DNA of 64,000 nucleotides from Salinirubellus salinus (lineage in GTDB: Archaea; Halobacteriota; Halobacteria; Halobacteriales; Haloarculaceae). The stretch is taken from the NCBI RefSeq assembly GCF_025231485.1, contig NZ_CP104003.1, positions 1-64,000 on the forward strand. Reading direction: 5' to 3'. Both the position numbers and the translations under genes were made by a program. Below are positions 16,549-20,278 of this stretch, one piece after another; the first letter of the stretch is position 1, and each line of letters begins with the position of its first letter. Under the pieces are notes generated by a model. The model did not search any database. It was not told the origin of the DNA and was given only the letters and a program-made list of their open reading frames with translations.

Positions 16549-16752
16549 ACCGACCGGTAGGCGTCTCGGGGAGTAAAGTCCACCCTTCCGTGCCGGGACT
16601 GCCGGGTTCGCCGGCCAGCGCGCTGCCGGCGAACCACGCCCGCCCGCCGACCCCCGTTCACGCCGTGAACGGCCGTTCACGCCCGCTGTGGGGTTCAGAA
16701 CACCGGTCGACCCCGTTGATTTATGCCAACGACTCGCAAACTCCGGGTCGTG

Positions 16753-17259
16753 ATGTCGGACGAGAACGACGAATGGGGGGTGGACCGGCGGACGCTCCTG
16801 CTCGGGGCGACGGCCGGGACGACGGCGCTCGCGGGGTGCAGTTACCTCGCGGGCGTCTGGCCGTTGGGGGACGACGATGACGACGGTGGGGACGGGACGC
16901 CGACACCGACCGTGGGGTACGGGGGGCAACCGACCTCGACGCCGCCCGCGACGCGAACGCTCACGGCGACGGCAACGGCGACCGCCACCGCGACGCGGAG
17001 CGGAGGCGGTGGTGACGGGGGGACCGCCACGCCGAACGAAGACGGCGAGGGGTCGACGGCGACCACCACGGCGACGGACACGCCTGGCGGGACCGATTCG
17101 CCGACTGCGACCGACACGCCGACCGATTCGCCCACGCCGGGGGGGACGGACTCCCCGACGGCGACGGACACCCCGACCCCGATCCCGGCATCGGTACCCG
17201 AGGACGACTACGGGGACCAGCACTACGGCGACGACAGCTACGGGAGCGTCGACAACTGA
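16753..17259 (+). CDS. Thr/Pro/Asp-rich Tat lipoprotein
   Basis: A 168-residue secreted protein. DRRTLLLGATAGTTALAGC gives a twin-arginine signal and a lipobox, so it is probably lipid-anchored outside the cell. The mature part is low-complexity: a poly-Asp run, TATATATATA and repeated PGGTDSPTATDTPT blocks, ending in EDDYGDQHYGDDSYGSVDN. This type of sequence is usually O-glycosylated and acts as a stalk. The TATA-like TTTATG at 16720-16725 makes ATG 16753 the better start than ATG 16723, which lies inside it. The next gene starts 15 bases after the stop, so the two may work together at the surface. Confidence 0.75.
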   Translation: MSDENDEWGVDRRTLLLGATAGTTALAGCSYLAGVWPLGDDDDDGGDGTPTPTVGYGGQPTSTPPATRTLTATATATATATRSGGGGDGGTATPNEDGEGSTATTTATDTPGGTDSPTATDTPTDSPTPGGTDSPTATDTPTPIPASVPEDDYGDQHYGDDSYGSVDN

Positions 17260-17274
17260 CGATTCACGACTACT

Positions 17275-19086
17275 ATGCCCGAGACACCAAACCACGACTA
17301 CAACGTCCCGAACGCGGGCGCCGAGGACTGGCACGTCCCGCTGAACGAGAACTTCGAGCAGTACGATACGGACATCGAGATACGCGACGAGGCGTCCAGA
17401 CGAGGGGACTACGACCCGAAACAGGGGGCGAAGTTCCTGGAGACGGATACCGGACTCGTCTATCAGGGGGACGGCTCGGCGTGGGTTCCCGCGCTGGCGT
17501 ACGGGCGGTACGTGCCAGCGGATTCGGCCGACCAGACGGGAAACATCGTCTTCGGACACCCGGCGAACAGTGTCGGCTCCGACGCTGTCGGGGCCACCAT
17601 CGGCGGGGGTGGTACTGCTGCCAATCCGAACACTGTGACAGGCACTTTTGCGACCATCGGTGGCGGGCGGGTCAACACGTCGGGCGGAGCGAATTCGACA
17701 GTCGGTGGCGGGGTGATAAATAGGGCCAGTGGATCGAATTCGACGGTCGGTGGTGGGAGAGGAAATACGGGTAACGGAGAGAACTCGACAGTTGGGGGAG
17801 GAATCTCGAACGACGTGGTGGGCCGAGGAGCGACTGTCGGGGGTGGGAGTGGAAATCTTGCCCAAGAGGAGCACGCCACCATTGGAGGCGGGCTGGATAA
17901 CCGTGCGCTCAAAGCTGATGCTACCGTCGGGGGCGGGAATGCAAATGTTGCAAGGGGTTTCGGTACCGTAGTGTCTGGTGGTGACACTAACCAGGCCGAC
18001 GAAGCGTATTCGACGGTCGCGGGGGGTGAGGCCAACAGTACGTCTGCTCCGTATTCGACCGTCGGCGGCGGGCACATCAACGTCGCGAGTGCGGAGAAAT
18101 CGACCATCTCGGGCGGGGTCCGAAACGAGGCGACCGGCGGGTACGCGACGGTCGGCGGGGGCGAGGAGAACACGGCGGAGGATTTCGGCGCGACCACCGC
18201 CGGCGGGTACCAGAACCGTGCGTCAAGCCAGGGGTCGTCCGTCGCCGGTGGCACAAAGAACGTCGCGAACGGCTCCGATGCGGCCGTCGGCGGCGGGCAC
18301 CTCAACGGTGCGAGCGGCTACCGGTCGACCGTCGGCGGGGGGACCAACAGCAGCGCGTCGGGTCGTGAGTCGACCGTCGCGGGCGGGTCGAGAAACGAGG
18401 CCGACGCGGACCGTTCGGCGGTCGGGGGTGGCTACTCGAACTTCGCTAGAGGGGAGGCCTCGACCGTGCCTGGCGGCTCCGTGAACGCCGCGAACGGCGA
18501 CTACGCGTTCGCCGCCGGCCGGAAGGCGAACGCCGAGGGGAACGGCACCTTCGTCTGGGGTGATTCATCCGACAACGGGGTCACCGCCACCCAGGACGAC
18601 GAGTTCAAAGTACAGGCCGGCGGTGGCGCAGTCATCTTCTCGTCGAGCGACCACTCGTCCGGGGTCAATCTCCGGTCGGGATCGGGGTCGTGGTCGGCGT
18701 GGTCCACGCGGGCCAGCAAGGCGAACGTCGAGGCCGTCGACCCCGAGACGGTGCTGGACGGGGTCGAATCGCTCGACATCTCCACCTGGAACTACCGGGC
18801 ACAGGGCGCCGAGACCCGACACATGGGGCCGATGGCCGAGGAGTTCGCCGAGGCGTTCGGACTCGGCGCGGACGACGAGCGCATCAGCAACGTGGACGCC
18901 GATGGAGTGGCGTTCGCCGCGATACAGGGGCTGGCCGAGCGACTGGACGAGCGAGAGGCGCGCGTCGAGGAACTGGAATCGGAGAACGAGGAACTGCGCG
19001 ACCGGCTCTCGGCGCTGGAAGCGCGTGTCGAATCGATGGCGACGACCGACGGAGCGGCGAGCGACCCCGCCCTTGCGGACGACTGA
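17275..19086 (+). CDS. 15-residue-repeat fibre protein with C-terminal S74 intramolecular chaperone
   Basis: A 603-residue protein in three parts. Residues 1-105 form an N-terminal domain (HVPLNENFEQYDTDIEI). Residues 126-425 hold 20 exactly 15-residue repeats of the form STVGGGxxNxASGxx, expected to fold as a trimeric YadA-head-like beta structure. Residues 470-560 match the S74 chaperone-of-endosialidase domain (DISTWNYRAQ, RHMGPMAEEFAEAFGLG, NVDADGVAFAAIQGL), followed by a coiled coil at 552-588. The Ser-Lys pair five residues apart (Ser477, Lys482) is retained, but the usual Asp after Ser is Thr. S74 domains trimerise phage tail spikes and surface fibres, then cut themselves off. There is no signal peptide. 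It follows the lipoprotein by 15 bases. Confidence 0.82.
   Translation: MPETPNHDYNVPNAGAEDWHVPLNENFEQYDTDIEIRDEASRRGDYDPKQGAKFLETDTGLVYQGDGSAWVPALAYGRYVPADSADQTGNIVFGHPANSVGSDAVGATIGGGGTAANPNTVTGTFATIGGGRVNTSGGANSTVGGGVINRASGSNSTVGGGRGNTGNGENSTVGGGISNDVVGRGATVGGGSGNLAQEEHATIGGGLDNRALKADATVGGGNANVARGFGTVVSGGDTNQADEAYSTVAGGEANSTSAPYSTVGGGHINVASAEKSTISGGVRNEATGGYATVGGGEENTAEDFGATTAGGYQNRASSQGSSVAGGTKNVANGSDAAVGGGHLNGASGYRSTVGGGTNSSASGRESTVAGGSRNEADADRSAVGGGYSNFARGEASTVPGGSVNAANGDYAFAAGRKANAEGNGTFVWGDSSDNGVTATQDDEFKVQAGGGAVIFSSSDHSSGVNLRSGSGSWSAWSTRASKANVEAVDPETVLDGVESLDISTWNYRAQGAETRHMGPMAEEFAEAFGLGADDERISNVDADGVAFAAIQGLAERLDEREARVEELESENEELRDRLSALEARVESMATTDGAASDPALADD
17650..18549 (+). repeat. 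Twenty imperfect 45-base tandem repeats within the fibre gene
   Basis: The repeats start at codons 126, 141, 156 and so on to 411 without a single change of register. Each codes for a (S/A)TVGGG turn plus a variable NxA(S/G)G segment. Units 1-8 (about 17650-18010) use clearly more A/T-rich codons than units 9-20, suggesting the array is mosaic. The variation is at protein level too, so these are diverged repeats rather than recent copies. Confidence 0.85.
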
Positions 19087-19149
19087 CGCGGAGACGGACC
19101 CACGCCCGAGACACGCACGCTGAGCACCGACCTGACCGAACCCCTGCTG

Positions 19150-19332
19150 GTGCAGGTGACGCCGCACGCCCGCGAGCGGGCCCTCCCGCAGGTGATCGAG
19201 CGCTCGACCCACCGTATCGTCGTCGAGGAGTTCGAGGGCGAGACCGGGAGCTACGAGGTGTCCTACACGGTGAAGGGGACCCGCGAGGGGTTCGCCGGCG
19301 AGGAGGTCGTCCGAGACCCCGCCGCGCGCTGA
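19150..19332 (+). CDS. Small hypothetical protein
   Basis: Sixty residues from a GTG at 19150, with MQVTPHARERALPQVIERST at the N-terminus and a SYEVSYTVKGTREGF segment suggesting a small alpha/beta fold. Sixty-three bases after the fibre gene, it may be in the same transcript. It ends one base before the convergent binding-protein gene. I do not recognise a family; the start is uncertain because the frame is open further upstream without a better start codon. Confidence 0.5.
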   Translation: MQVTPHARERALPQVIERSTHRIVVEEFEGETGSYEVSYTVKGTREGFAGEEVVRDPAAR

Positions 19333-19333
19333 C

Positions 19334-20278
19334 TCAGCCGAGCAGGTCGTTCGTGTAGAGCGTGCCGGCGTCGAGTTCGCTCGCGGGCAGGTGGTCGCCG
19401 TCCAGCGTCCGCAGTATCTCGTTCTTCGCCAGCCAGTCGACGAACGTGGCCCACCGCTCGTGGGCCATCCGGCCCCACTCGCCGTCCTCGGTCAGGAACG
19501 CGCCGGAGAGCCGACGGGCACTCTCGACGAGGAACTCGTGGTCGTCGAGGTTCGGCCCGTCCTCGCCGGAGAGCGCGTCGGCCGCTCGCTCGGGGTCGGC
19601 GGCGGCCTCGCGGTAGCCACGGGCGGTGGCGTCGAGGAACGACGCGAGCGTCCCGTCCGGGTCCGCCAGCGCGTCCGGGTGGGCCAGCAACACCGGCGTG
19701 TACCCGTAGGGCACGTCGTACTCGTCGAGGCCGAAGGTACGGAGCGCGTGGCCCGCGCGCTCGGCGAGGAGGCCCTCCCACGGCTCGAACACCCACGTCG
19801 CGTCGGCGCTCCCGTCGACGATGGTGTTCGGGATGCCGAGTTTCGGCGGAGTGACGATGTCCACGTCCCCTTCGCCCCCGTCGTTCTGGACGAGGTGTCG
19901 CACGATGTCGTCCTCGAACCGGGCGTCGTAGGAGGCGTAGGTTCGCCCGTCGAGAGCACGGGGTCGCTCGACGTCGCTCGATTCGAGCACGGCGATGGCG
20001 CTCGTGTCGCGCTGGCAGAGCGCAGCGACGGCCGTCAGCGACGGGTACGCCGGGTGCGTGTGGTAGCTGATGGCGCTCTCCGAGGGCGCCACCGCGAGGT
20101 CCGCGTCACCGGCCGCGACTCGCTTGGCGGGCGTCGTCTCGTAGTCGTCCACGGCGGGCGACAGGAACGAGGCGTCGACGCCGGCCGCCTCGTAGTGGCC
20201 GGCCTCGCGGGCGAGGTAGAACCCCACGTGGTTCGTGTTCGGCGTCCAGTCCAGGGCGACGGTCACGCTGCCGGTCAT
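19334..20278 (-). CDS. THI5/NMT1-like substrate-binding protein
   Basis: A 314-residue periplasmic-binding-protein fold of the THI5/ThiY (NMT1) group. The N-terminus VALDWTPNTNHVGFYLA is the family hallmark, with GDADLAVAPSESAISYHTHP lining the pocket and WVFEPWEGLLAERAG in the second lobe. ThiY proteins bind a hydroxymethylpyrimidine precursor for thiamine synthesis. The protein begins directly at the mature domain: there is no signal peptide, lipobox or upstream start, so it may be cytoplasmic. No ABC permease or ATPase gene is adjacent. Confidence 0.78.
   Translation of the reverse strand: MTGSVTVALDWTPNTNHVGFYLAREAGHYEAAGVDASFLSPAVDDYETTPAKRVAAGDADLAVAPSESAISYHTHPAYPSLTAVAALCQRDTSAIAVLESSDVERPRALDGRTYASYDARFEDDIVRHLVQNDGGEGDVDIVTPPKLGIPNTIVDGSADATWVFEPWEGLLAERAGHALRTFGLDEYDVPYGYTPVLLAHPDALADPDGTLASFLDATARGYREAAADPERAADALSGEDGPNLDDHEFLVESARRLSGAFLTEDGEWGRMAHERWATFVDWLAKNEILRTLDGDHLPASELDAGTLYTNDLLG

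Follow-up and report, generated by a model that had tools for sequence, protein, structure and literature searches.

Proteins that have already folded are exported by the Tat translocase, and in S74 chaperone domains an Asp typically follows directly on the Ser; lying outside the catalytic pair, this Asp is not counted as defining. That Tat exports hitchhiker proteins is established (PMC4273604), and Tat is the rule for haloarchaeal lipoproteins, 78-87% of which use it (PMC2945643). The gene studied here lies in a 64,000-nt stretch of Salinirubellus salinus contig NZ_CP104003.1 (hereafter the window) and encodes a fibre protein. Like the S74/endosialidase chaperone fibres (PF13884), this protein has an S74 domain at its C-terminus, with a five-residue step from Ser to Lys, and also a coiled coil; in contrast to them, its haloarchaeal family replaces the Asp after Ser, and its N-terminal module (NTD) is significant in no phage record. 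With the heads of the trimeric autotransporter adhesins YadA and UspA1 the fibre shares 15-residue GGG..N.A.G left-handed beta-roll repeats, but it carries neither autotransporter anchor nor signal peptide and has an S74 chaperone instead.

Our results agree with the preliminary description of a fibre-like protein that combines YadA-head-type repeats with an S74 chaperone and has no signal peptide (Table 1). The 20 repeats are in phase as described: the unit starts run from residue 126 to residue 411 in steps of exactly 15; lag-15 identity reaches 0.41, against a ceiling of 0.20 over all lags of 500 shuffled sequences, and phmmer aligns the repeats to the UspA1 head (3pr7) with an E value of 2.2e-23. 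In the monomer model of the fibre, short strands recur at 15-residue intervals, and pLDDT is mostly 80-90 within residues 190-230 and 260-360. Comparison of the full-length model with the PDB gave no match with E < 0.001, and comparison with viral models, which adds little, returned YadA-head and S74 proteins. The S74 core was recovered by PF13884 (Peptidase_S74) at 30.8 bits over residues 479-528, for a Pfam cut-off of 22, and the reported Ser477-Lys482 spacing holds, both residues being invariant in a ten-protein alignment of the haloarchaeal S74 family (A3). As had been pointed out, Thr and not Asp follows Ser477; since this position is occupied by Thr, Ala, Ser or Val across the haloarchaeal family, the missing Asp is a family trait. 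The C-terminus consists of the S74 domain and the coiled coil, and no Pfam match to a C-terminal outer-membrane anchor barrel was found in the fibre. S74 fibres are not rare in the haloarchaeal family of the window organism, and a transfer of the fibre from bacteria or phage is plausible.

Table 1. Features of the partner and fibre genes in the window.
Feature	Position	Strand	Basis or remark
Partner Tat lipoprotein, 168 aa, with Pro/Thr-rich spacer and YG tail	16753..17259	+	RRTLLLGATAGTTALAGC signal and lipobox
Twin-arginine signal peptide, followed by lipobox Cys29	16753..16836	+	Sequence
GYGG motif downstream of the lipobox, residues 55-58	16915..16926	+	Recurs in most tail lipoproteins
YG tail EDDYGDQHYGDDSYGSVDN, proposed docking peptide	17200..17256	+	Pattern matches mostly directly upstream of NTD genes
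Fibre protein, 603 aa	17275..19086	+	NTD, beta-roll repeats, S74 chaperone, coiled coil; signal peptide absent
NTD (putative N-terminal docking module), residues 1-75	17275..17499	+	Alignment A1
20 YadA/UspA1-head-type repeats of 15 residues, residues 126-425	17650..18549	+	Periodicity, phmmer, model
S74 intramolecular chaperone domain	18703..18939	+	PF13884; Ser477 codon 18703-18705, Lys482 codon 18718-18720
C-terminal coiled-coil helix, residues ~548-591	18916..19047	+	Pfam scan, monomer model
Probable in-frame leftover of a different C-terminal module, includes the 60-aa ORF	19087..19332	+	Similarity to the NTD protein of locus L066

Both ends of the fibre gene are correctly placed. Dozens of homologues share its beginning (M..TPNH.YN.P..G..DWH), so the start is correct; the earlier concern that homologues with a signal might reveal a wrong start did not materialize, because the S74 relatives with a Tat signal that we found all lack the NTD. 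The stop is genuine since the ADD-stop end is common to relatives. The 60-residue protein encoded behind it, once suggested as a partner, belongs instead to an in-frame remnant similar to the C-terminal domain that other NTD proteins have (for the C-terminus of the L066 protein, 54% identity in 74 aligned aa, E 1e-21); the best reading is that a swapped C-terminal module left its old end behind the fibre stop. A second gene copy, 99% identical, at C1:4079441 was rejected as the untrimmed overlap of the circular contig C1, whose end (G000:C1:4062157-4126148) repeats the whole window (1-64000) and differs from it almost only by single-base gaps. Within 16601-19500 the five differences between the copies are all single-base deletions, with zero mismatches, and the fibre gene in the C1-end copy has four such deletions. 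Because the C1-end copy differs there by deletions only, we take the window copy as the intact read. Apparent gene duplications near contig ends of this assembly are thus artefacts.

The lipoprotein encoded upstream of the fibre had also been put forward as a partner, and this it very probably is. It has a Tat motif (RRTLLL, with RR at residues 12-13) and an LAGC lipobox. The 15 residues that separate the second Arg from the lipobox Cys compare with a range of 12-21 in haloarchaeal Tat lipoproteins (PMC2945643). The two genes are co-oriented and 15 nt apart. The same partner architecture adjoins NTD genes in many haloarchaea, and in most of the tail lipoproteins GYGG, usually followed by x-P, stands at the corresponding place. 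We described the tail by the pattern [DE][YF]G-x3-[YF]G-x3-[YF]G; no family in Pfam or NCBIfam covers it at its cut-off.

The NTD consists of a DWHxPLNENF element and a tail-fibre-like GAKFLxTDTGxVYxGDGSxW beta element, and no Pfam or NCBIfam entry matches it at its cut-off. The beta element weakly resembles Mtd_N (PF18454) and the N-terminus of phage hyaluronidase, with sub-threshold scores, but differs from these in being joined to the haloarchaea-specific DWHxPLNENF element. With a profile built from 12 examples (alignment A1) we detected the NTD at 57 loci of genome contigs, every one haloarchaeal. A single example used as query retrieved 19 haloarchaeal plasmids, and many such loci are on megaplasmids. 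The NTD gave just one marginal viral contig in IMG/VR and nothing significant in 50,697 phage records; a viral origin of the fibre locus was rejected, as these scans are near-empty and the neighbours of the fibre gene are ordinary chromosomal genes. The cargoes of the NTD comprise S74 fibres, an autoproteolytic Peptidase_G2-like fibre and a PL14 polysaccharide-lyase-like protein. It is also found as a short stand-alone protein with a gene for a right-handed beta-helix next in line, and its DWH element occurs alone, in tandem or C-terminally as well (L148, L159). One protein (L141:4643-6793) begins with three tandem 40-residue DWHxPLNENF elements, a scaffold-like arrangement. Rows of a gene for a Tat protein with YG motif (Tat-YG), one or more NTD genes and a signal-less right-handed beta-helix gene were seen at L012:7240-10965, L146:2175-5158 and L131:6176-9287, and such rows often lie near glycosyltransferases.

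In the genomes compared, the order of the two genes, the conservation of their motifs, their co-occurrence and adjacency, and the presence of a signal on the partner and of none on the fibre are directly observed. Searched at the DNA level, the tail pattern occurs 21 times in the 59 genomes of the family, and its reversed control not once. Of the 17 matches that remain without one low-complexity array (G123) and an assembly duplicate, 15 immediately precede, at <~170 bp and on the same strand, NTD genes that were found independently. All three tail genes of the window genome adjoin NTD genes, and its two other NTD loci also have a Tat protein with a YG tail upstream. A class-wide survey of 146 near-complete genomes counted 30 with the NTD and 24 with a tail match; the match is present in 16 of the 30 NTD-positive and 8 of the 116 NTD-negative genomes (Fisher p=5e-8, an uncurated and therefore safe figure, although related genomes are non-independent samples). 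The 8 matches in NTD-negative genomes look repeat-like or due to chance on inspection. By this curation, done by eye, all 16 genomes with genuine-looking tails are NTD-positive, and 13 of the 18 genuine-looking tails in this survey sit <150 bp upstream of an NTD. A regular expression scored 34 of 42 distinct tail ORFs as Tat, and those from Haloarcula that it missed contain RRTCMK...LAGC where inspected.

When the 57 NTD-selected loci are taken as the starting point, a gene with a C-terminal YG tail lies just upstream in 21, and 27 have a Tat ORF with the YG motif anywhere in it on the same strand within 3.5 kb. The arrangement varies: the Tat-YG gene is downstream of the NTD gene at L067, L071, L076, L082 and L101, it is upstream with the YG motif immediately after the signal at L104 and L114, and at six Haloarcula loci a tail gene (seen, or expected by homology) has a convergent NTD gene as neighbour. 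No YG-Tat gene was found near about half (about two dozen) of the 57 NTD loci, a few of which are cut by contig ends, and orphan tail genes exist at L053, L055 and L147; action in trans must therefore be assumed. Minimal partners, approximately a Tat signal plus a YG peptide, stand beside NTD genes at L112 (79 aa), L101 (73 aa) and L159, and another of 59 aa (L143) is located elsewhere in an NTD-containing genome. Two frames for MinD-like ATPases (L144:1491-3194, L143:15426-17276) run on in frame into an RR stretch, a GYGG motif and a YG tail; they may represent a fusion or an internal start, the signal-like RR stretch being clear in L144. The middle of a 674-aa Tat-YG partner (L056:1471-3495) matches NCBIfam TafC at 8.7e-35, below cut-off. 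Searches of the open-access literature found no description of the tail-NTD pair. Related pairs are present in Haloarcula hispanica, as pHH400 genes HAH_RS18945 and HAH_RS18950, and in Haloferax larsenii, as KU306_RS17810 and KU306_RS17815, so culturable strains are accessible for tests.

Recurrence of the pairing across many haloarchaea makes it probable that the partner carries the folded fibre out and holds it at the surface. Our preferred interpretation, in which we place moderate confidence, is that the two genes form a haloarchaeal surface-display module whose partner would export the folded fibre by Tat and then tether it. Folding of the fibre, presumably into a trimer, would take place in the cytoplasm, with S74 acting as a self-cleaving chaperone that would cut before Ser477. 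The NTD would dock onto the YG-rich peptide of the Tat lipoprotein expressed alongside. The twin-arginine signal of that lipoprotein would lead the complex, already folded, through Tat as in hitchhiker export, and the lipidated Cys and long Pro/Thr linker would tether the fibre to the cell surface. The variable part (beta-roll repeats here, G2-type fibres and lyase-like domains elsewhere) would then work outside the cell, probably in adhesion or in glycan binding or processing. We infer docking, Tat co-export, trimerization, cleavage and the surface role from the sequences and their arrangement. As a route for folded proteins, Tat is well suited to S74 fibres, which fold before they are cleaved. 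The genes have what is expected of a hitchhiker pair: one encodes a Tat signal and the other none, and they are adjacent, co-oriented and conserved. The phage-spike-like and lyase-like cargoes, together with the glycosyltransferases frequently found next to NTD loci (L012, L129, L131), suggest glycan binding or processing.

Because most haloarchaeal lipoproteins use Tat by default, the signal of the partner is weak evidence when taken alone, and the strongest points are the minimal partners and a swap of signals. S74 fibres that have the same repeats but no NTD usually bear their own Tat signal (~11 cases: L019, L022-L024, L028, L031, L132, L135, L136 and two in L137), whereas NTD fibres begin at the conserved M..TPNH and no signal precedes the module. 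A third, signal-less N-terminus in three NTD-less S74 fibres (L018, L025, L030) counts against Tat co-export, as do the NTD loci that have no YG-Tat gene nearby and the orphan tail genes. An AlphaFold2 model in which tail and NTD were joined in one read-through chain came out poorly (mean pLDDT of 50), with no docking visible, and was left out of the evidence. It is also conceivable, if rather unlikely, that the pair serves for docking at the surface only, the YG tail being an anchor or receptor on the outside and the fibre leaving the cell by an unknown secretion route, in vesicles or upon lysis. This would explain the tail-NTD pairing equally well, and the prevalence of Tat among haloarchaeal lipoproteins (PMC2945643) would account for the partner's signal anyway; it is difficult to reconcile with the Tat signals usual on NTD-less S74 fibres and with the minimal partners at L112, L101 and L159, which without a lipobox have nothing to anchor with.

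We consider it improbable that these are unrelated adjacent surface genes which travel together as accessory loci, with the YG protein binding S-layer or glycan and the fibre being cytoplasmic or non-functional. The megaplasmid location of many NTD loci fits such an explanation, as does the fact that the direct interaction between partner and fibre is one that we infer, but across many genera, and with cargoes unrelated to one another, tail and NTD stay associated despite the varied lengths and middle domains of the partners, and L159 and L115 retain the pairing though the DWH element is at the C-terminus of the cargo.

We rate about as low the proposal, made in the preliminary description, of a virus-like or contractile particle; in such a particle the NTD would attach to a tail tube or baseplate. 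No sheath, tube or baseplate genes lie near the fibre gene, and the NTD is nearly absent from the viral and phage sequences scanned. A look for tail-like genes in the wider genome, as the preliminary description advised, finds two tandem gp19-like tube genes (G000:C1:3092182-3093043) that probably belong to a contractile injection system, but they are 3.09 Mb along the contig and unlinked to NTD loci. Beyond this pair and the weak resemblance of the NTD beta element to tail fibres, the particle interpretation draws on T4 gp19-like tube genes directly upstream of NTD/S74 fibres at L067, L076 and L130 (Natronosalvus amylolyticus) and of an NTD gene at L107. However, a Tat-YG gene also follows the fibre at L067, L076 and L130, and two genomes with a gp19-NTD pair have no further gp19; the gp19 gene of L067 is the only one found in its Natronosalvus hydrolyticus genome. 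These three-gene sets of gp19-like, NTD-S74 fibre and Tat-YG genes (L067:5553-7207, L076:2745-5322, L130:6532-8207) make a tube-like assembly a candidate variant there, though not at the window locus. Likeness to the haloarchaeal contractile injection system (archaeal T6SS, PMC11566945) lies in the few genomes where NTD genes have gp19-like tube genes as neighbours. Genes for sheath, baseplate and tube are all missing from the window locus, and the text of that paper mentions neither S74 nor lipoproteins.

The surface-display interpretation also invites a broader one, which we advance tentatively and rate at somewhat less than an even chance. Small proteins composed of a signal and a YG peptide, with the lipid anchor optional, may be detachable Tat signals that serve in trans as a general adaptor, for export as well as display, of any folded, oligomeric cargo with the DWHxPLNENF module, so that tailspike-like proteins acquired from phages or bacteria would be displayed without a signal of their own. 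If the module works as proposed, archaea would possess a modular adaptor for the export of folded cargoes devoid of a signal, namely lyase-like proteins and fibres that are probably trimeric. This would explain how signal-less tailspike-like proteins can function in haloarchaea. It would also provide a tag/receptor pair for the display of folded proteins at high salt and a new test of the capacity of Tat for large complexes.

Close counterparts are the known Tat hitchhiker pairs (HybO-HybC; PaoABC, PMC4273604), in which a signal-bearing and a signal-less partner are likewise co-encoded and folded co-export is proposed. Those pairs are single enzyme complexes, whereas the short YG motif and the NTD recur over many unrelated cargoes, in the manner of a general adaptor, and the haloarchaeal carrier is often a lipoprotein.
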